NCBI GenBank assembly: GCA_946548895.1
Contig: CAMNQF010000021.1
Coordinates: 1 to 52,217 of the forward strand
Source of the DNA: an uncultured bacterium
GTDB taxonomy: Bacteria > Bacillota > Clostridia > Oscillospirales > Oscillospiraceae
DNA length: 52,217 nt
Direction of reading: 5' to 3'
The translations under genes and the position numbers were made by a program. Shown piece by piece: positions 34,644 to 51,920 of this stretch (position 1 is the stretch's first letter; every line of letters starts with the position of its first letter). The notes beneath the pieces are model-generated. The model was given only the letters and a program-made list of their open reading frames with translations, was not told the origin of the DNA and did no database searches.

Positions 34644-36062
34644 TTATCGGACGTCCAGCCCCCCGACCAGCACACATCTGCGCCGCCGGGCGAAGGACTT
34701 GGCCGTGGTCAGCCCCTCTCCGGTGGGACCGGCGATGGTAAACGTGGTGCAGCCCTCGCCGCCCACGCCGATGCCGGCGTAGGAGGGGCCGTTCTTCACA
34801 AAAATGGTGGTCTGGATCAGCTTGGCCATTTTGGTCAGCTTATCCACATTCCGGGAGTGCATCATGGCGGTGTGGCGGTTGCCGTGCTCCACCCGGACGG
34901 CCATGTCGATGGCGGCGTCCACGTCGGGCACCCGCACCACGGGCAGGATGGGCATCATCAGCTCCACCTGCACAAAGGGGTGGTCCTCGGTGGTCTCCAT
35001 CATGATGACCTTCACCTCGGGGCCCACATTAATGCCCACTTTTTCCAGGATGTACCGGGCGCTCTTGCCCACGAATTCGGTGACGGGGTGCTTGCCGTCC
35101 TCCTTCACCACCAGCTTCACCAGCTTGTCGATGAGGGCGGGGTCCTTTACCTCGTAGGCGCCGGATTTCTTCATGTTGAACATGAGGTAGTCGGCGATGG
35201 AGTCCACGGCGATGACTTCCTTCTCCGCGATGCAGGGCAGGTTGTTGTCAAAGCTGCACCCGTCCACGATGTCCTGGGCGGCCTTCTCGATATTGGCGGT
35301 CTCGTCCACCACCACGGGGGGGTTGCCCGCGCCCGCGCCGATGGCCTTCTTGCCGCTGGACAGCACCGTCTTGACGATGGCGGGGCCGCCGGTGGCCACC
35401 AGCATCCGCACCTTGGGATGGCTCATCATGGCGTTGGTGTTCTCGATGGAGGGCTCGGCCACCGTGACCACCAGGTTGGCGGGGGCACCCGCCCGGGCCA
35501 AGGCCTTGTTGATGAGCTGAATCAGGTGCAGGGACACCATTTTCGCCCGGGGATGGGGGCTGAATACCACGGAGTTGCCTGCCGCCAGCATCCCGATGGA
35601 GTTGCAGATGACGGTCTCGGTGGGGTTGGTGGTGGGAGTGATGGCCCCGATGACGCCAAAGGGGGAGTACTCCACCAGGGTCAGGCCGTCGTCACCGCTC
35701 ATGGCCTCGGTGGTCAGGTCCTCAATGCCGGGGGACTTGGTGGCCGCCAGGCGGTTCTTCACCAGCTTGTACTCGTATGCGCCCATCCCGGTCTCCTCCA
35801 CGGCCAGGCGGGAGATGTAGTCCAGGTTCTCCTCCTCCAGCACCACGTCCCGGATGGCCTGGACGTACTTGGCCCGGTCGTGCATGGAGCAGTTCAGATA
35901 TGCCTTCTGGGCGGCGGCGGCGGCCTCCACGGCGTCGTTCATGTTGCCGAACACGCCCCAGTCTCCGCCGGCGGCGGCGCAGTTGGGCTCCGTTCCGCCC
36001 ATATCCACGCGGCTGAGCACCTGCTTGACAATGCTGGCCACCACTTGTTCATCAAAATTCAT
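34644..36062 (-). CDS. pduP: CoA-acylating propionaldehyde dehydrogenase PduP
   Basis: 472 residues. Converts propionaldehyde, CoA and NAD+ to propionyl-CoA inside the microcompartment. Catalytic Cys in NNLPCIAEKEV (about 265); NAD-binding glycines in IGAGAGNPPVVVDE. The N-terminal about 20 residues (MNFDEQVVASIVKQVLSRV) form an amphipathic encapsulation helix that begins with the same five residues as PduD here. A Cys/Ala-rich linker follows. The start overlaps the pduO stop by 4 nt. Confidence 0.95.
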   Translation of the reverse strand: MNFDEQVVASIVKQVLSRVDMGGTEPNCAAAGGDWGVFGNMNDAVEAAAAAQKAYLNCSMHDRAKYVQAIRDVVLEEENLDYISRLAVEETGMGAYEYKLVKNRLAATKSPGIEDLTTEAMSGDDGLTLVEYSPFGVIGAITPTTNPTETVICNSIGMLAAGNSVVFSPHPRAKMVSLHLIQLINKALARAGAPANLVVTVAEPSIENTNAMMSHPKVRMLVATGGPAIVKTVLSSGKKAIGAGAGNPPVVVDETANIEKAAQDIVDGCSFDNNLPCIAEKEVIAVDSIADYLMFNMKKSGAYEVKDPALIDKLVKLVVKEDGKHPVTEFVGKSARYILEKVGINVGPEVKVIMMETTEDHPFVQVELMMPILPVVRVPDVDAAIDMAVRVEHGNRHTAMMHSRNVDKLTKMAKLIQTTIFVKNGPSYAGIGVGGEGCTTFTIAGPTGEGLTTAKSFARRRRCVLVGGLDVR

Positions 36063-37042
36063 TGCGCGGTCCCTCCTTCAATCTGCATTGCGTAGCGCGC
36101 GATCTCCATGTCCTGCTCCACCGTGCCGCCGGACACGCCGATCCCTCCGGCCACCTTGCCGTCCACCCGGTAGGGGAACCCCCCGCCGAACAGCACAATC
36201 CTGCCGGGGTTGGCGTTCTCAATTCCATACAGGGGCCCGTCAGGCCGGGCGGCCGCCCCCAGCTCATGGGTGGGCATCTGGAAAGCGTAGGCGGTGTAGG
36301 CCTTGCCCGCCGACACCTCCACGCTGCCCGCCAGGGCTCCCTCCATCCGCTGGAGGAACATCAAATTGCCCCCCTCGTCCACGGCGGAAAACACCACCGG
36401 CACGCCCAGTTCCTTGGACTTCTCCACGGCCCGGGCCGCCATGCGGTGCAAAATGTCCAGATTCATGGGGGGAAACCCGCCGGCCTGCCGCGCCATGGCC
36501 TCCTTCACCAGGCCGGTGACCTTTTCCCTCATCTGGGTCAGGTCCTCCTGGAGCCGCGCCATGGCGTAGACCGCGTCGGACAGCCGGTTGAGGTAGCGCG
36601 CCAGCACCTCCCGTGCGGGCAGCTCCACAATCCGCCGCTCCGCCCGCCGCACGATGGTGCGGGCCACGTGGAGGGCCGCCGAGGCGGGGTCCACGCCGGG
36701 AATGACAAAGTGGGTCTGTCTGCCTGTGGTCTCCGTGCAGGTGTCCACCACCCGCTCCAGAAACGCCACGTCCTCCTCAGAGATGGTCCCCTTAAGGGCG
36801 GCGGCGGTCTCCGGGGAGTCGCTGGCCAGCTCCGCGCCCAGGGCGAACAGCCGCCCCTGGATCTTGCGCACCGTAGTGCGGATAAATTCGTTGTCCGTCT
36901 GGGTATAGGCCAGGCCCAGCATGGAGTTGGCCTCGTCCACGGTGCCATAGCACTCCACCCGGGGGTCGGATTTGCTCACCCTTCCCCCGCCCACCAGGCT
37001 GGTCTGCCCCTTGTCGCCGCCCCTGGTATACAGGTTCGCCAT
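36059..37042 (-). CDS. pduO: PduO, ATP:cob(I)alamin adenosyltransferase with C-terminal haem-binding-like domain
   Basis: 327 residues in two domains. Residues 1-185 are a PduO-type adenosyltransferase, with the N-terminal ATP motif YTRGGDKGQTSLVGGGRVSK and the signature RRAERRIVEL with YLNRLSDAVYAMAR. Residues about 190-327 form the GlcG/HbpS (DUF336) domain, which binds haem or B12 in relatives. It makes adenosylcobalamin for diol dehydratase. Overlaps pduN by 1 nt and pduP by 4 nt. Confidence 0.95.
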   Translation of the reverse strand: MANLYTRGGDKGQTSLVGGGRVSKSDPRVECYGTVDEANSMLGLAYTQTDNEFIRTTVRKIQGRLFALGAELASDSPETAAALKGTISEEDVAFLERVVDTCTETTGRQTHFVIPGVDPASAALHVARTIVRRAERRIVELPAREVLARYLNRLSDAVYAMARLQEDLTQMREKVTGLVKEAMARQAGGFPPMNLDILHRMAARAVEKSKELGVPVVFSAVDEGGNLMFLQRMEGALAGSVEVSAGKAYTAYAFQMPTHELGAAARPDGPLYGIENANPGRIVLFGGGFPYRVDGKVAGGIGVSGGTVEQDMEIARYAMQIEGGTAQ

Positions 37043-46597: not shown

Positions 46598-46671
46598 GTG
46601 TTTTACCTCCATTAGATGTGATGTTTGTTATGTTGGATTGCGGCGCTTGGGATGCTGCCGGATTCTCATTC

Positions 46672-46950
46672 TCACTCCATGTGGGGCAGGATCTTCTCCA
46701 CGTCGCTGTGGGGGCGGGGGATGACATGGACGGAGACGACCTCGCCCACCTTTTCAGCGGCCACGGAACCGGCGTCCACGGACGCCTTCACCGCGCCCAC
46801 GTCGCCGCGGACCATCACGGTGACCAGTCCGGAGCCGATCTTCTCGTACCCCACCAAAACCACGTTGGCGGACTTCACCATGGCGTCGGCCGCCTCAATC
46901 GCGCCGACCAGGCCCTTCGTCTCAACCATACCCAGAGCTTCCTTCTGCAT
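46672..46950 (-). CDS. pduA: BMC-H shell protein PduA
   Basis: 92-residue hexameric shell protein that forms the pores for propanediol. Motifs [36 protein letters not shown] and [16 protein letters not shown]. First gene after the main pdu promoter; the ATG at 46950 follows AAGGAGGCAGCAAT. Nearly the same sequence as the second BMC-H at 39676. Confidence 0.95.
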
Positions 46951-47038
46951 ATTGCTGCCTCCTTCATTTATTCGTGGCCTGCGGCGCGCCCTGCGCAAAA
47001 CCCGCGCGGCAGCGGCATACGCACGCCTATCACGATAC

Positions 47039-47067
47039 ATTATACCTGGAAGCCCCCCTCCTTTTCT
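47039..47067 (-). promoter_or_regulatory. pduA: Main pdu promoter (upstream of pduA)
   Basis: Minus strand perfect TATAAT at 47039-47044, but no recognisable -35 at the 17-bp position (47062-47067). Instead a GTCAAGAAAA motif overlaps that position. This is the layout of an activator-dependent promoter. It predicts a 5' leader of about 80 nt. Confidence 0.6.
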
Positions 47068-47092
47068 TGACGCCAGAAGGTACTTTTTTGTC
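47062..47092 (-). promoter_or_regulatory. Candidate AraC-type activator sites at pduA
   Basis: On the minus strand GACAAAAAAG (47083-47092) and GTCAAGAAAA (47062-47071) are direct repeats exactly 21 bp, two helical turns, apart; the proximal one covers the -35 position. A related GTTGAAAAAG lies at 47127-47136. The same motif recurs upstream of the regulator operon at 50867-50916. Confidence 0.55.
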
Positions 47093-47170
47093 CATTCCTC
47101 CCAAGCTAAAAATTTACCCGCCCCGTCTTTTTCAACGTTTCCGACAAAATTCCGTTTCCAGGCGGCACAA

Positions 47171-47207
47171 GGCCCCGGCCAGCGGCGGCAAGCCGCGGGC
47201 CGGGGCC
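47171..47207 (-). terminator. Hairpin between pduQ and the pduA promoter
   Basis: GGCCCCGGCC with CGGC inside, pairing to GCCG and GGCCGGGGCC. A strong stem but only a weak TTGTG tail on the minus strand. Probably reduces read-through from the regulator-pduQ transcript into pduA. Confidence 0.5.
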
Positions 47208-47274
47208 CTTATCCAAATATTTATATTTATAATTTGTGGATTTTCCTGGCTTTTCGCGGGGAATTCCAGCCGTT

Positions 47275-48414
47275 TTATCCCGTGATCTGAGCCAGCAGCC
47301 TTTCCACGTCGGCCGCCTCCACCGGGCGGGGATTGGTGGAGGTGGTGGCGTCGGACAGGGCCGCGGCCACCAGCTCCTCCTTCCGCGCTTTCACCTCGGC
47401 CGGGTCTATCCCCTGCCCCTTCAGCGTGGCGGGAATCCCGATCTTCCGGTTCAGCTTCTCCAACTCGTGGATCAGGTTGGTCACCCCCAGCCGCACGTTG
47501 GGGGCGGGCAGGTCCAGTACCTTGGCCATGCGCTGGTACTTCCGGGCCGCCACGCAGTATTCCCCCTTGTGCACCGTGGCCAGGTCGGCGTTGAAGGCCA
47601 GAATCTTGGGCAGCAGGATGGCGTTGATCCGCCCGTGGGCGATGTGGAGCTTGCCGCCGACGGCGTGGGCCATGCCGTGGTTCAGCCCCAGCCCCGCCGA
47701 GTTGAACGCCAGACCCGCCATGCAGGAGGCGTTGTGCATCTTCTCCCGGGCCAGCAGGTCGGACCCGTCGGCCACCGCCAGGGGCAGGAAGCGGAACACC
47801 AGGGACACCGCCTTCTCGCACAGGGCGTCGGAGAAGTCGTTGTAGCCGGTGGACACATAGGCCTCCAGGGCGTGGGTGAGCACGTCCATCCCCGCGTCGG
47901 CGGTGACGGCGGGGGGCGCGGACACGGTGAGCTCCGGATCCAGAATGGCCACCATGGGCCGCAGGGCCCGGCTGCTCAGGGGATATTTCAAACCCTTCTC
48001 CCGGTCCGTGATGACGGCGTAGTCCGTCACCTCGGAACCGGTGCCGCTGGTGGTGGGGACGGCAAAGCACTCCATCTTGTCCGTGTCCACGCCCAGCGCC
48101 TGCTTGGCCACCTCCCGGATGGCCTTGGCCGCGTCAATGGTGGAACCGCCGCCCACGGCGACCACCGCCTGGGCCCCGCAGTCCCGGAAAGCCTCCACCC
48201 CCGCCGTCACCACCTCAATGGGGGGATCGGGCACCACGCCGTCGAACACGCTCACCTGGCAGCGGGTGAGGAAAGAGGCCACCCGGTCCGGCACCCCCAG
48301 CTGGTTCATGAAGCGGTCGGTGACGATGAGCACCCGCTTGTCCTCCACCCGGCGCAGGCGCTCCAGCGCGCCCTGGCCAAAGTATACCCTGGTACTAAAA
48401 CTGAATTCCTGCAT
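47275..48414 (-). CDS. pduQ: Iron-containing alcohol dehydrogenase, PduQ-like
   Basis: 379-residue group III alcohol dehydrogenase that reduces propionaldehyde to 1-propanol and regenerates NAD+ for PduP. Cofactor motif VGGGSTIDAAKAI (about 92-104); [11 protein letters not shown]; metal ligands in DAGMDVLTHALEAYVS and GLGLNHGMAHAVGG. Lacks an N-terminal encapsulation peptide, as does Salmonella PduQ. It lies at the 5' end with the regulators, not near the 3' end as in enteric pdu operons. Eighteen nt after the response-regulator gene. Confidence 0.92.
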   Translation of the reverse strand: MQEFSFSTRVYFGQGALERLRRVEDKRVLIVTDRFMNQLGVPDRVASFLTRCQVSVFDGVVPDPPIEVVTAGVEAFRDCGAQAVVAVGGGSTIDAAKAIREVAKQALGVDTDKMECFAVPTTSGTGSEVTDYAVITDREKGLKYPLSSRALRPMVAILDPELTVSAPPAVTADAGMDVLTHALEAYVSTGYNDFSDALCEKAVSLVFRFLPLAVADGSDLLAREKMHNASCMAGLAFNSAGLGLNHGMAHAVGGKLHIAHGRINAILLPKILAFNADLATVHKGEYCVAARKYQRMAKVLDLPAPNVRLGVTNLIHELEKLNRKIGIPATLKGQGIDPAEVKARKEELVAAALSDATTSTNPRPVEAADVERLLAQITG

Positions 48415-48432
48415 AATTGGCCTCCATTCGCC

Positions 48433-49521
48433 CTATCGCGGCACGCCGCCCCCCTTGGAGAGGGCCGGCCCCCGGCCATGCTGGTGCCGCTCCCGGTATT
48501 CCGTGGGGGTGAGCCCCACCTTTTTCTTGAACGCCTTGCCGAAGTAGTTGGTCTCGCTGTAGGACAGTTCGTAGGCAATATTGATGACGGGCATATCCGT
48601 GTCGGTGAGCATGGCCTTGGCGGCGCTGATCTTGCCGTCCATCATGTAGGTGATGAAATTGACCCCGGTGATCCGCTTGAAAAACTTGCTGAAGTAGCTG
48701 GAGCTCATATTGGCGTACTCCGCCGCCTCATCCAGGCCGATGCCCTCCTTGATATTGCGGTCCACGTAGTTGAGCACCCGCTGCTCGTCGCTGACCCGGT
48801 AGCCCCGGTCCTCGTCCACGGCGTCGAAGATGACCCCCCACATCTTTTCAAACACCAGGAAGGAGTCATGCTTCCGCCCCTGCTGGTCGAAGCGGAGGCG
48901 GAACCGCTCAATGAGGGTGGACAGCTTCAGCTGGGCGGAGGGCCCCAGGGGCGCGCCCAGGCGGACCACTCCCTCCCCGAAGGACAGGACGCTGAACCGA
49001 ATCACGTCTATATCATCGGTTTCCCGGTACAGAGAATCAAGGTAATCCTTTGTGGTGTTGATGCACTTTTTATAGCAGAACGCCTGCATATGCTCGGCAG
49101 CCTGCTTGAGATACCGCTCCCGGTGCTCCTTCTCCCACTCTCCCGCCGGCTTGGCGCTCCACTGGATCATCACCCCGGCCGCCGCCGTCAGCCACTCGGG
49201 GCGGTAGGGCTTGAGCAGGTAGTCCTGCACCTCCAGCCGCCACACGTTGGCCACGATGTCGCTGCGCCGGCCGGTGGACGTAACAAGAATGGGCATATCC
49301 GGGGCCAGCTCCTTAGCGGCGGTGATTACGTTGCAGTAGTCCGCGTCGAACCAGGGCACGTCCGCGATGAACAGGCGCACCGGGCCCTCCCCCATCCGCT
49401 CCAGGGCCTGCCGGGGGCCGGCGGCGGCCAGGATCTCCGCCTGGGGCAGCCCCGCGGCCAGAATTGCCCGCATATTCTCCCGCTCCATGCGGTTTTCATT
49501 TAAAATCAGAATACGGCACAT
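48433..49521 (-). CDS. Response regulator with AraC-type DNA-binding domain
   Basis: 362 residues. The N-terminal about 115 residues are a receiver fold: phospho-acceptor Asp in LFIADVPWF (about 50), a Thr/Ser switch in ILVTSTGRR and Lys in DYLLKPYRPEW. The acidic pair near the start is replaced by LNENR, so phosphorylation may be weak. A central linker of about 130 residues follows, then an AraC double helix-turn-helix (about 250-345: IGLDEAAEYANMSSSYFSKF and INIAYELSYSETNYFGKAFK). The ATG at 49521 follows AAAGGAGGC. Predicted activator of the pdu genes, paired with the PocR sensor upstream. Confidence 0.9.
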   Translation of the reverse strand: MCRILILNENRMERENMRAILAAGLPQAEILAAAGPRQALERMGEGPVRLFIADVPWFDADYCNVITAAKELAPDMPILVTSTGRRSDIVANVWRLEVQDYLLKPYRPEWLTAAAGVMIQWSAKPAGEWEKEHRERYLKQAAEHMQAFCYKKCINTTKDYLDSLYRETDDIDVIRFSVLSFGEGVVRLGAPLGPSAQLKLSTLIERFRLRFDQQGRKHDSFLVFEKMWGVIFDAVDEDRGYRVSDEQRVLNYVDRNIKEGIGLDEAAEYANMSSSYFSKFFKRITGVNFITYMMDGKISAAKAMLTDTDMPVINIAYELSYSETNYFGKAFKKKVGLTPTEYRERHQHGRGPALSKGGGVPR

Positions 49522-49561
49522 ACCGCGGCGCCTCCTTTCCGCTGCCGGCGGCAATCCGGCC

Positions 49562-50767
49562 CTACCGCCACTTCAAGGGCAGCCGCAGCCGGAACGCGAA
49601 CCCGGCCTGTCCGTCGCTCCTGTGCCCGATGGACAGGTCGCACCGCTTGCCGATCACCCGCTTCAGGCTTCGGTTCAGGTCCCGGAGGGAGCCCCGGTCC
49701 TTGGCCAGGTAGGCGTCCGCCCGGTTCTCCATCTCCTCCGGGGCGGCGCTCTCGCTGTTGGCCTGCACGCAGACGATCAGGTCCTTTCCGCTCTCCTCGG
49801 CGAATATGTCCACCTTCCGCCGGTCCTCCTCGCTTTTGAAAGACTGGAGGGTGATCTCCACCAGCGGCCCCAGGATCAAAAAGGGACAATTGACCCCCCA
49901 GTACTGCCGGGGCACCGACACGCTGTAGTCCAGCGTCTCCCCCCACCACGCCTTCTGGATGCGGAGAAACGCCTCGATATAATTCAGCTCCTCCCCCAGG
50001 ATGGACAGCTTTCGGTCCGCGTCGCTGGTGTAGCGGATGATGTCCGCGAAGTCCAGGGCCACCGCCCCGGTGCGGTCCGCCCCCTCCTGGTAGGCCAGCT
50101 GGGTAATCAGGTTCATAATGAAAAAGAACTGGTCCGCCCCCTCCTGCTGGAGCAGGGCTCCCCGCTCCTGCCGGTGCACGGACAGGTCCAGGTCGGCGCG
50201 GCCCGCCCGCTCCTCCCCCGGTTCCCGCTCCCCGGGCTCCTGCGCGCCCTGGCCCCGGCGGTCCTGCATGGCGTACAGGAACATATCCCGCACCACCTGC
50301 ACCGACGCCAGCAGCTTGTCGTAGGTCATCTCCCGCACATGGCGGTAGGATTCCGCCATGGCCTCATTTTTCCGCCAGTTTCCCCGGGGGACGATGTACT
50401 CCAGTTCCCGCTCCTCCGCGTCCGCCAGCCGCACCTGCCCCCCCATCACCGAGCCCAAGTAGTTGTCGTTGAGGATCAGCGGCACCGCGAAATCCACCAG
50501 GTCCGCGTGGCAGCGGTAGATGTAAGGCTGGCCGGTGATGGCGGCGTGGAGCCCGCCGTGGGCGTCGCACTGCTCGCACATCTCGGAAAAGCCCTGAAGC
50601 TCCCGGCCCAGGGCACAGTGGTCCGTGAATCCGCTGTACTTGGTGATGGGCCGCCCCTTGTAGTCCACCGTGACAAAGGCCAGCCCCATGGCCTTGGAGC
50701 ACCGGTCCTGGATGGACTGAAGCAGCTCAAGATTGACCTGTTGGGATATTTTTTTGAACTCTTCCAC
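49562..50767 (-). CDS. PocR-domain sensor with degenerate LytS/YehU-type kinase core
   Basis: 401 residues. Residues about 10-170 are a PocR ligand-binding domain: DRCSKAMGLAFVTVDYKG, the Cys pair EMCEQCDAHGG, IYRCHADLVDFAVPLILND and YLGSVMGGQV. PocR senses 1,2-propanediol in Salmonella. An acidic linker (GEREPGEERAGRA) follows, then a His-kinase-like region. The usual NPHFLFN motif is EGADQFFFIMN here, with Gln in place of the phospho-His. The ATP-lid N-box reads LVEITLQSF without Asn, and no DxGxG box is seen. It probably works by ligand-dependent binding, not phosphotransfer. GTG start after TTGGAGGTGAAAGG. Confidence 0.85.
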   Translation of the reverse strand: MEEFKKISQQVNLELLQSIQDRCSKAMGLAFVTVDYKGRPITKYSGFTDHCALGRELQGFSEMCEQCDAHGGLHAAITGQPYIYRCHADLVDFAVPLILNDNYLGSVMGGQVRLADAEERELEYIVPRGNWRKNEAMAESYRHVREMTYDKLLASVQVVRDMFLYAMQDRRGQGAQEPGEREPGEERAGRADLDLSVHRQERGALLQQEGADQFFFIMNLITQLAYQEGADRTGAVALDFADIIRYTSDADRKLSILGEELNYIEAFLRIQKAWWGETLDYSVSVPRQYWGVNCPFLILGPLVEITLQSFKSEEDRRKVDIFAEESGKDLIVCVQANSESAAPEEMENRADAYLAKDRGSLRDLNRSLKRVIGKRCDLSIGHRSDGQAGFAFRLRLPLKWR

Positions 50768-50834
50768 GGCCTTTCACCTCCAAGCGCAAGCAATACGCCA
50801 TATTTTCCTAAGAACTTCCCAGTATGTCAGGTCT

Positions 50835-50862
50835 ATTATAGCAAAAAATCACCCGCTCACAA
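50835..50862 (-). promoter_or_regulatory. Promoter of the pdu regulator-pduQ operon
   Basis: Minus strand TTGTGA, 16-bp spacer, TATAAT, 68 bp before the sensor GTG. Confidence 0.65.
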
Positions 50863-50866
50863 CGTC

Positions 50867-50916
50867 TTTTTTTGTATCCAGACAGTAATATTTTGACATA
50901 GCCCGTCTTTTTTGAC
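50867..50916 (-). promoter_or_regulatory. Candidate AraC-type activator sites at the regulator operon
   Basis: Three copies on the minus strand: GTCAAAAAAG (50907-50916), GTCAAAATAT (50888-50897) and TACAAAAAAA (50867-50876), with steps of 19 and 21 bp. The last lies 5 bp upstream of the -35. They match the motif pair at pduA. Confidence 0.5.
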
Positions 50917-50933
50917 TACTGCGTGAAATTGAC

Positions 50934-50963
50934 AAAAGCGGCGCGGCCCTATGGCCGCGCCGC
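50934..50963 (-). terminator. Terminator overlapping the stop of the CorA-like gene
   Basis: Perfect 11-bp stem GCGGCGCGGCC/GGCCGCGCCGC with loop ATAG on the minus strand, then TTTTGTCAATTT. The TAG stop codon sits in the loop. Confidence 0.8.
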
Positions 50964-51920
50964 CTCGTCGCATTCGCGCTCGCGCTCCTCGTCCGCCCCC
51001 TCCGGCTCCGGCGGGGCTTCCGCCATGTCCCGCGCCTCCAGCGGGTGGCGGGCGCGGCCCTTCAGCCCCAGGCGCCCCCCTTTCCGGCCCATTCGGATGG
51101 CGTTCTGGATGCCGCCCGCCTTGTAGGACGCCGCCGCTCCGACGGTGAGTCCCCCCACCACCACGCCCCCGGCAATGCCCAGCAGCGGGTTCATGGCCAG
51201 CACGCCGCCGAACATCAGGTTCAGCGCCACCGCCGCCAGGGACACGATGCTCAACAGGCGGGCGTTGCGGTTGATGTTGTTGTTGACGATGGAGGTATAG
51301 GTGTCCAGGTCCTTGATGACGGTATTCTTGATGAGCTCGTACCGCTCCTCCAAAAACTGAAAATCCAGCGCCACCCGTCCCTGGAGGACGTAGCTGTTCT
51401 GCATCTGCATGGGGAAGTACCCCTTGTCGATGCGGGTGATGATCTCCTTCACGGAGATGATCTGGTCGCCGTACCCGGTGTAACGCCGGCGGAAATCCAG
51501 AATCTGATAGGTACCGCTGTTGTCGATGTGGCTGTCCAGGCCGTTTTCCAGCAGCTTCATGTCCTCCACCCCCCGCTCCACCAGGGCGGTCAGGTCGGCA
51601 ATTTTGAATTGGAGGGCATACATCAGCACTTGGCCCAGGTATTTGGCGGGCCGCTCCGCCAAAAAGTCCCGGAACAGCCCCTGAGATGTCTCCTCAATCA
51701 CCAGGTTGCTCCCCGCCTGCCGCAGCCGCAGCTCCCCGTGGAGTCCCTCCCCGCCGTAGGTCAGCTCCAGCACCACGCACTCCTCATCCCCGAAAATGCG
51801 CTGGCGGGCCACCGGCTCCTGGATGGGGCCGTAAAAAATACAGTATTCGCTGTCCGCTGGGCCCGCCCCCTCCGGGTGGCGGCCCCGGTTCATGCGCTGC
51901 AAAAGGGTCAGCTCTTCCAT
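50949..51920 (-). CDS. CorA-like membrane protein (divergent)
   Basis: 323 residues. A soluble N-terminal part (about 1-200) with long helices (VALDFQFLEERYELIKNTVI, SIVNNNINRNARLLSIVSLA) leads into two C-terminal membrane helices (LLSIVSLAAVALNLMFGGVL and LLGIAGGVVVGGLTVGAAA). A CorA magnesium channel has the same layout, but the GMN motif between the helices is replaced by AMNP, and a basic, Arg-rich and acidic tail of about 60 residues follows. So it may be a distant relative with other function. The ATG at 51920 follows GGAGGTG. Promoter at 51969-51997. Confidence 0.55.
   Translation of the reverse strand: MEELTLLQRMNRGRHPEGAGPADSEYCIFYGPIQEPVARQRIFGDEECVVLELTYGGEGLHGELRLRQAGSNLVIEETSQGLFRDFLAERPAKYLGQVLMYALQFKIADLTALVERGVEDMKLLENGLDSHIDNSGTYQILDFRRRYTGYGDQIISVKEIITRIDKGYFPMQMQNSYVLQGRVALDFQFLEERYELIKNTVIKDLDTYTSIVNNNINRNARLLSIVSLAAVALNLMFGGVLAMNPLLGIAGGVVVGGLTVGAAASYKAGGIQNAIRMGRKGGRLGLKGRARHPLEARDMAEAPPEPEGADEERERECDEAARP

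Follow-up and report, generated by a model that had tools for sequence, protein, structure and literature searches.

The propanediol-utilisation (pdu) microcompartment locus studied here lies on the minus strand of contig CAMNQF010000021.1 of an uncultured Oscillospiraceae bacterium; the whole stretch of 52,217 nucleotides that was analysed is referred to as the window. In the direction of transcription, the genes are ordered sensor, regulator, pduQ, a 321-bp gap, and pduA with the remaining pdu genes. The question raised by this locus is which DNA site might link the two regulatory genes, a PocR-domain sensor with a kinase-like C-terminal half (49562–50767) and an AraC-type response regulator with a C-terminal AraC helix-turn-helix domain (48433–49521), to the organelle genes behind them. 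A direct repeat with half-sites two helical turns apart was found in front of both transcription units, and it probably serves as the operator of the AraC-type regulator.

The direct repeat at two promoters

The gene pduA (46672–46953), encoding a bacterial microcompartment (BMC) shell protein, was the first gene of the main pdu operon and was preceded by a -10 element, TATAAT, at 47039–47044, from which transcription would start at about 47032. The two minus-strand motifs reported for this promoter in an initial annotation of the sequence were present with a step of 21 (GACAAAAAAG-N11-GTCAAGAAAA): the distal half-site GACAAAAAAG at 47083–47092, and the proximal half-site GTCAAGAAAA at 47062–47071, which occupied the -35 position. 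The same annotation had described the -35 as missing, and the best hexamer in that region indeed matched TTGACA at only 3 of 6 positions. This was so in 19/19 loci compared, in all of which the distance from CAAGAAA to TATAAT was 17 or 18 bp. Two half-sites that point the same way with a step of about 21 bp, the proximal one overlapping a poor -35, form the arrangement of an AraC-family class II operator.

The sensor/regulator operon possessed the promoter TTGTGA-16-TATAAT (50835–50862), with a predicted start at about 50828. As annotated, three related copies with steps of 19 and 21 were located upstream of its -35: box 2, GTCAAAAAA, at 50908–50916; box 3, GTCAAAATA, at 50889–50897, the distal half of a 21-bp pair; and box 4, TACAAAAAA, at 50868–50876, the proximal half. 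Unlike pduA, in which the -35 was replaced, the proximal half-site here adjoined a usable -35. A further box 1, GTCAATTTC, absent from the annotation, was observed at 50925–50933, with a step of 17 to box 2.

Specificity and conservation of the repeat

Within the window, the pattern GWCAARAAA-N12-GWCAARAAA with up to three mismatches had two matches, versus 0.01 expected. In a matrix-free scan with the 33-bp pduA site, the regulator promoter was the best of the 104,359 other window positions, with 23/33 identical residues and 19/33 in the runner-up. The same scan gave mixed results in 17 other loci: the regulator promoter was the single best position in L004, L007, L131 and L134, and ranked from second to about hundredth in the remaining 13, with the position not always at the boxes.

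For the draft genome (3.8 Mb in 116 contigs, 96% complete), the only match to this loose paired pattern without mismatch was the pduA promoter. Six other sites had two mismatches: L027 and L029 lay within same-strand open frames of at least 293 residues and L028 within one of 233; L025 lay outside open frames of at least 100 residues and upstream of one; L024 and L030 fell only in shorter frames on the opposite strand. With up to three mismatches, 67 matches were obtained versus 72 for the reversed control; the bare A-rich motif thus carried no specificity, and the loose form was rejected as genome-wide evidence. The 30-bp form GWCAAAANANTACNNNCTGGNNNMAARAAA, with up to three mismatches, matched only the two promoters described here (reversed control, 0), although, since the pattern was derived from these two sites, the informative part is solely the absence of a third match. 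Whether the motif is equally common elsewhere, one of the points on which the initial annotation had made its proposal depend, was answered differently for the two forms, the loose one being no rarer than its reversed control and the 30-bp one being confined to the two promoters.

The repeat was also conserved with the pdu locus. The genus set consisted of seven uncultured-bacterium records (L002–L008) encoding the same regulator at 83–92% identity. In the pduA upstream regions, which were 60–78% identical as a whole, AATGGACAAAAAA, CAAGAAAA (at the proximal half-site) and GTATAAT were invariant in 8/8 loci, and the distal half-site was identical throughout except that its last G was A in L008. 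In the regulator upstream regions (48–70% identical; n = 7, because L008 is truncated), AGTCAAAAA at box 2, CAAAA in box 4 and TATAAT were invariant in 7/7. Box 1 was aligned in the same seven loci, with the variants GACGATTTC in L005 and L007 and GACAATTTG in L006. At 50934–50966 of the window, a GC-rich hairpin was seen past the upstream CorA-like gene, which was not flagged in a terminator scan; its terminal TTTT leads directly into box 1, so that the conservation of this box may derive in part from a terminator. With a matrix built from 19 pduA sites, the regulator promoter scored above its own dinucleotide shuffles in five of the seven genus loci, namely the window, L002, L004, L006 and L007 (p 0.002–0.028).

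A wider set, drawn from sampled genomes of the order (394) and of the family (400), yielded 11 more full-length sensor relatives (E < 1e-90), which belonged to four other genera of the family and were all found in the order sensor, regulator, pduQ, gap, shell gene. When the matrix from the eight genus pduA sites was applied to these 11 loci, the pduA-promoter site ranked first in nine and second in two (L127 and L135), at 114–130 bp before the start of the pduA match. A search of 30 genomes, 19 of them carrying the locus, with the pduA form of the pattern and up to three mismatches gave a match at the pduA promoter in 18 of the 19 (15 without mismatch, two with one and one with three); the 10 matches at other places had three mismatches each. 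No match with fewer than three mismatches was obtained in 11 same-genus control genomes, which had been picked for having no close match to the regulator (eight of them also lacked a listed sensor). A spacing control, with N11 in place of N10, gave 18 matches in 14 of the 30 genomes, all with three mismatches, one of them being a shifted pduA site in G023.

A comparable circuit has been described in Acetobacterium woodii, in which a homologous PocR sensor and AraC-type regulator (Awo_c25930/Awo_c25920) are encoded beside pduA. The response regulator, treated with acetyl phosphate, shifted a 291-bp fragment from upstream of pduA and a 399-bp fragment from upstream of the kinase, that is, the upstream regions of pduA and of its own operon; the pduA fragment drove a reporter, and 1,2-propanediol raised expression 25-fold (PMC7593272). 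The terms "motif" and "direct repeat" do not occur in the main text of that gel-shift study. Genome G872, in which the gap between regulator and pduA is exactly 291 bp, was taken by inference to be that of A. woodii. This gap contained three same-strand GWCAAAA, versus 0.14 expected by shuffling (p about 0.001), and no other 291-nt stretch of this 14-kb locus contained three (1,047 overlapping stretches compared). In the 399 nt before the kinase gene, the fragment being assumed to end at the kinase start, two were found versus 0.19 expected (p 0.014), as was also the case in 10 of 1,030 other stretches. The presumed A. woodii system differs in that its kinase and receiver (L216) keep all catalytic residues and in that no pduQ lies between regulator and pduA. 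In five loci outside the family, the numbers of GWCAAAA in the pduA region and the kinase region were 2 and 2 (L215), 2 and 0 (L217), 0 and 2 (L218), 1 and 1 (L220), and 0 and 0 (L225).

Several observations weigh against a dedicated operator of this form at both promoters. The pduA site of G287 had no match to the pduA form and a low matrix score of 2.1. Among the 30 genomes, the reversed pattern gave 25 matches with up to three mismatches versus 28 for the real one, the mismatch levels of the control not being broken down, so that weight rests only on the 17 matches with no or one mismatch, all of which are at pduA. The regulator promoters of L003 (p 0.084) and L005 (p 0.178) failed the shuffle test within the genus. 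In the other genera, the regulator promoter exceeded its shuffles (p < 0.05) in only one of 11 loci, L135 (p 0.032), where the best match lay off the usual position. The motif was lacking at both promoters in L009, the nearest relative in the tree with a complete kinase, and in L225, and at one of them in L217 and L218. Finally, the half-sites of the presumed A. woodii are 89, 33 and 12 bp apart rather than 21.

The regulator-promoter copy proposed in the initial annotation is thus convincing within the genus (5/7, p < 0.03) and significant in 1/11 loci beyond it, the matrix test of the regulator promoter having been set aside for the ten other loci as not significant; CAAAAAA boxes adjoining the -35 in other-genus loci were read by eye and not counted as proof. 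Taken together, the sequence comparisons point firmly to an operator at pduA across five genera, give good grounds for predicting one at the regulator promoter within the genus, and are only suggestive of one at the regulator promoter in other genera.

Sensor, receiver and neighbouring features

Eighteen Oscillospiraceae sensors, that of the window included, were compared. The box that reads PHFLFN in kinases of this type was DQFFFIMN or similar in them, and the phosphoacceptor His was gone in 18/18. It was kept in 18 of 20 comparison rows from other families, the exceptions being L226 and L230 (L233, with its genes in another order, was excluded). The ATP-binding motifs were degraded in 15 of the 18 sensors, of which L128 still has the Asn of the first motif; in L133, L134 and L135, the His was lost and the motifs VEN and DNGTGM or DSGTGM were retained. 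A scan for Pfam HATPase_c covered the sensors of the window, L125, L128, L133 and L135 together with four complete kinases; the domain was present in L133, L135 and 4/4 complete kinases, and no hit at E up to 1 was obtained for the window, L125 and L128. The window sensor therefore had neither the phosphoacceptor His nor the HATPase_c domain of a two-component kinase, although family searches still label it a histidine kinase. With the His and the ATP-binding motifs gone, phosphotransfer from it is unlikely, and, as judged from these residues, the sensor is very likely unable to work as a conventional histidine kinase in the Oscillospiraceae lineage. A predicted structure of the sensor was not relied on, as the mean pLDDT was 43.6 and only blocks in the C-terminal third reached 65–85; nor was its best Protein Data Bank match, the histidine-kinase domain 6swk (E 2.4e-6, query TM-score 0.30).

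The receiver of the regulator retained Asp54, residue 82 (Ser or Thr; Ser82 in the window) and Lys104 in 18/18 Oscillospiraceae rows, whereas the acidic pair was altered in 18/18, with ED or DD replaced by NE, IE, SD, SE or DS (N8/E9 in the window). Response_reg scores were 31–41 bits in the five receivers tested versus 87–104 in three complete systems.

Phylogenetically, the 18 His-less sensors formed one clade (support 100/100), which grouped with the His-bearing L009 at lower support (94/93); a single loss of the His at the base of this clade is thus the simplest reading. Over all 38 rows the His label required three changes, because L226 and L230 are placed elsewhere in the tree. Both are PocR kinases of family f65, outside the Oscillospiraceae, and appear to have lost the phosphoacceptor His independently (Asn takes its place in L226). 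Crude pairwise estimates for six genus pairs gave dN/dS values of 0.02–0.11 for the His-less helical domain, indicating strong purifying selection, compared with 0.06–0.16 for the PocR domain and 0.07–0.46 for the ATPase-like part.

The gene pduQ (47275–48414), encoding an iron alcohol dehydrogenase, started 18 bp past the regulator gene and is probably on the same transcript. No terminator was flagged between pduQ and pduA in the scan of the window; hairpin-plus-T runs were visible in this gap in several relatives. L131 has an additional PocR-domain gene inside the gap (L131:4148-4468, plus strand), and the DNA after it looks, by eye, like the signalling region of a methyl-accepting chemotaxis protein. 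The pduA 5' leader (46951–47038) contained a conserved hairpin. In a comparison of 16 loci, both partners had changed in 5 of its 10 pairs, a number reached in 27 of 500 shuffles; the covariation score was reached in none of 500. Of the cells, 93% were paired, versus 23–51% when the structure was slid, and bases at the ribosome-binding site are engaged in a short helix. The next match to the hairpin in its own genome had an E value of 0.9; it had no match in L133–L135 or in six loci of other orders, and Rfam gave no match at E up to 1 over 46600–51200. Elsewhere in the window, PduO (36059–37042, minus strand) consisted of a cobalamin adenosyltransferase domain fused to an HbpS-like domain.

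The locus brought together a diol dehydratase, BMC shell proteins and pdu enzymes (Pfam BMC and Dehydratase_LU; tblastn synteny in relatives), and in it a PocR plus kinase-like protein (PF10114 and PF06580 in one protein) was followed by a response regulator (PF00072 and HTH_18 in the next), as in loci of the PDU1D type. The pairing of PocR and kinase is already known from PDU1D loci, where it is treated as a two-component system; loss of kinase residues is not mentioned in the accessible part of that report (Axen et al. 2014, PMC4207490). Other regulators have been described for related genes, namely a DeoR-type regulator for pdu in C. phytofermentans (PMC3557285) and, in C. beijerinckii, a LytS-type kinase and response regulator among rhamnose-induced genes (PMC6384099).

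The proposed circuit and its alternatives

The reading to which we assign considerable confidence is that the AraC-type regulator encoded at 48433–49521 has this motif as its operator. A regulator dimer, or two tandem monomers, would occupy the pair of half-sites, whose step is 21 bp. Because the proximal half-site stands where the -35 of pduA would otherwise be, RNA polymerase would depend on the regulator there (class II activation); in front of the sensor/regulator/pduQ operon, the repeat lies just upstream of a usable -35 instead, which would allow basal expression plus autoactivation. The diol would be sensed by the PocR domain of the partner protein, as suggested by that domain and by A. 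woodii, and, since the sensor is very likely unable to autophosphorylate, the signal would most likely be passed through protein contact between the sensor and the degenerate receiver. The outcome would be a positively autoregulated operon, in which pduQ is probably carried along with the regulatory genes, and activation of the operon of shell and enzyme genes in parallel. Of the circuit drawn in the initial annotation, the two-turn direct repeat at both promoters, conserved with the locus, is retained, whereas its label "feed-forward" is better replaced by positive autoregulation with parallel activation of pduA.

The main alternative to contact signalling is that phosphorylation of the regulator persists, with the phosphate coming from another kinase or from acetyl phosphate, and that the sensor merely modulates it. 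Retention of Asp54, Ser or Thr82 and Lys104 in every receiver is in keeping with this, as is the acetyl phosphate treatment of the A. woodii regulator for gel shifts (PMC7593272), but the alteration of the acidic pair, which binds Mg2+, and the low Response_reg scores argue in the other direction, and we regard this possibility as real but the less likely of the two.

Binding of the half-sites by some other regulator, for example a redox or catabolite regulator, is improbable. In its favour, the pduA upstream region of one relative (L215) has a palindrome, TTGAAAACCGTTTTCA, that resembles a CcpA catabolite-control site and closely follows the GACAAAA half-sites on their downstream side. A global regulator, however, should have more than two sites per genome, and no match to the pduA form with fewer than three mismatches was obtained in the 11 genomes of the genus in which the regulator has no close match. 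In A. woodii, moreover, the corresponding fragments are bound by the cognate regulator (PMC7593272).

Equally improbable is that the A-tracts act directly on RNA polymerase as an UP element or phased bend, with a resemblance between promoters and no dedicated regulator, for, A-rich and two helical turns apart though the half-sites are, and common as their loose pattern is, this would not lead one to expect the conservation of positions other than A (G.C ahead of the A-tract and TAC behind it), the replaced -35, or the confinement of the 30-bp form to two promoters and of the pduA form with no or one mismatch to the pdu locus in 30 genomes.

If the AraC-type regulator is the binding protein, the two-protein system resembles the single-chain PocR of Salmonella and Listeria, in which the sensing domain and the AraC-type DNA-binding domain that controls pdu are in one protein; it differs in consisting of two proteins, each with a degenerate two-component domain. 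DivL of Caulobacter, a relative of histidine kinases with Tyr in place of the phosphoacceptor His, has no kinase activity and binds a response regulator, and is, by analogy, an earlier example of a kinase put to a new use. It binds DivK~P and acts on CckA (PMC4211667), whereas the presumed partner here is the DNA-binding AraC-type regulator of the same operon. It is an even chance, in our estimate, that a complete PocR two-component system in the Oscillospiraceae lost its phosphate chemistry stepwise, the His first and ATP binding later, with the receiver acidic pair altered, to become a phosphate-free two-protein activator responsive to a ligand, in which the former kinase and receiver domains relay the signal by contact; the pduA operator would have been conserved throughout this change.

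The circuit layout is already known from A. woodii; the operator model is new here. In the open-licence literature, as judged by title and the start of the abstract, no description of the motif or of a kinase-dead PocR sensor was found among the matches listed, nor was a published PocR operator sequence found for comparison; within that scope, neither the operator model nor a syntenic clade under selection that has lost its kinase chemistry had been seen before. The model would supply a testable operator for a regulator so far described, in the available account, by whole-fragment gel shifts only (PMC7593272). A presumed two-component system of gut commensals is likely to have had its kinase and receiver domains put to a use that needs no phosphotransfer, and since the intermediates L133–L135 lack the His and keep the ATP-binding motifs, the sequence of losses can be studied in extant relatives. 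For the gut bacterium itself, the genes of the propanediol organelle and those of the switch that controls them appear to be under one conserved DNA site.

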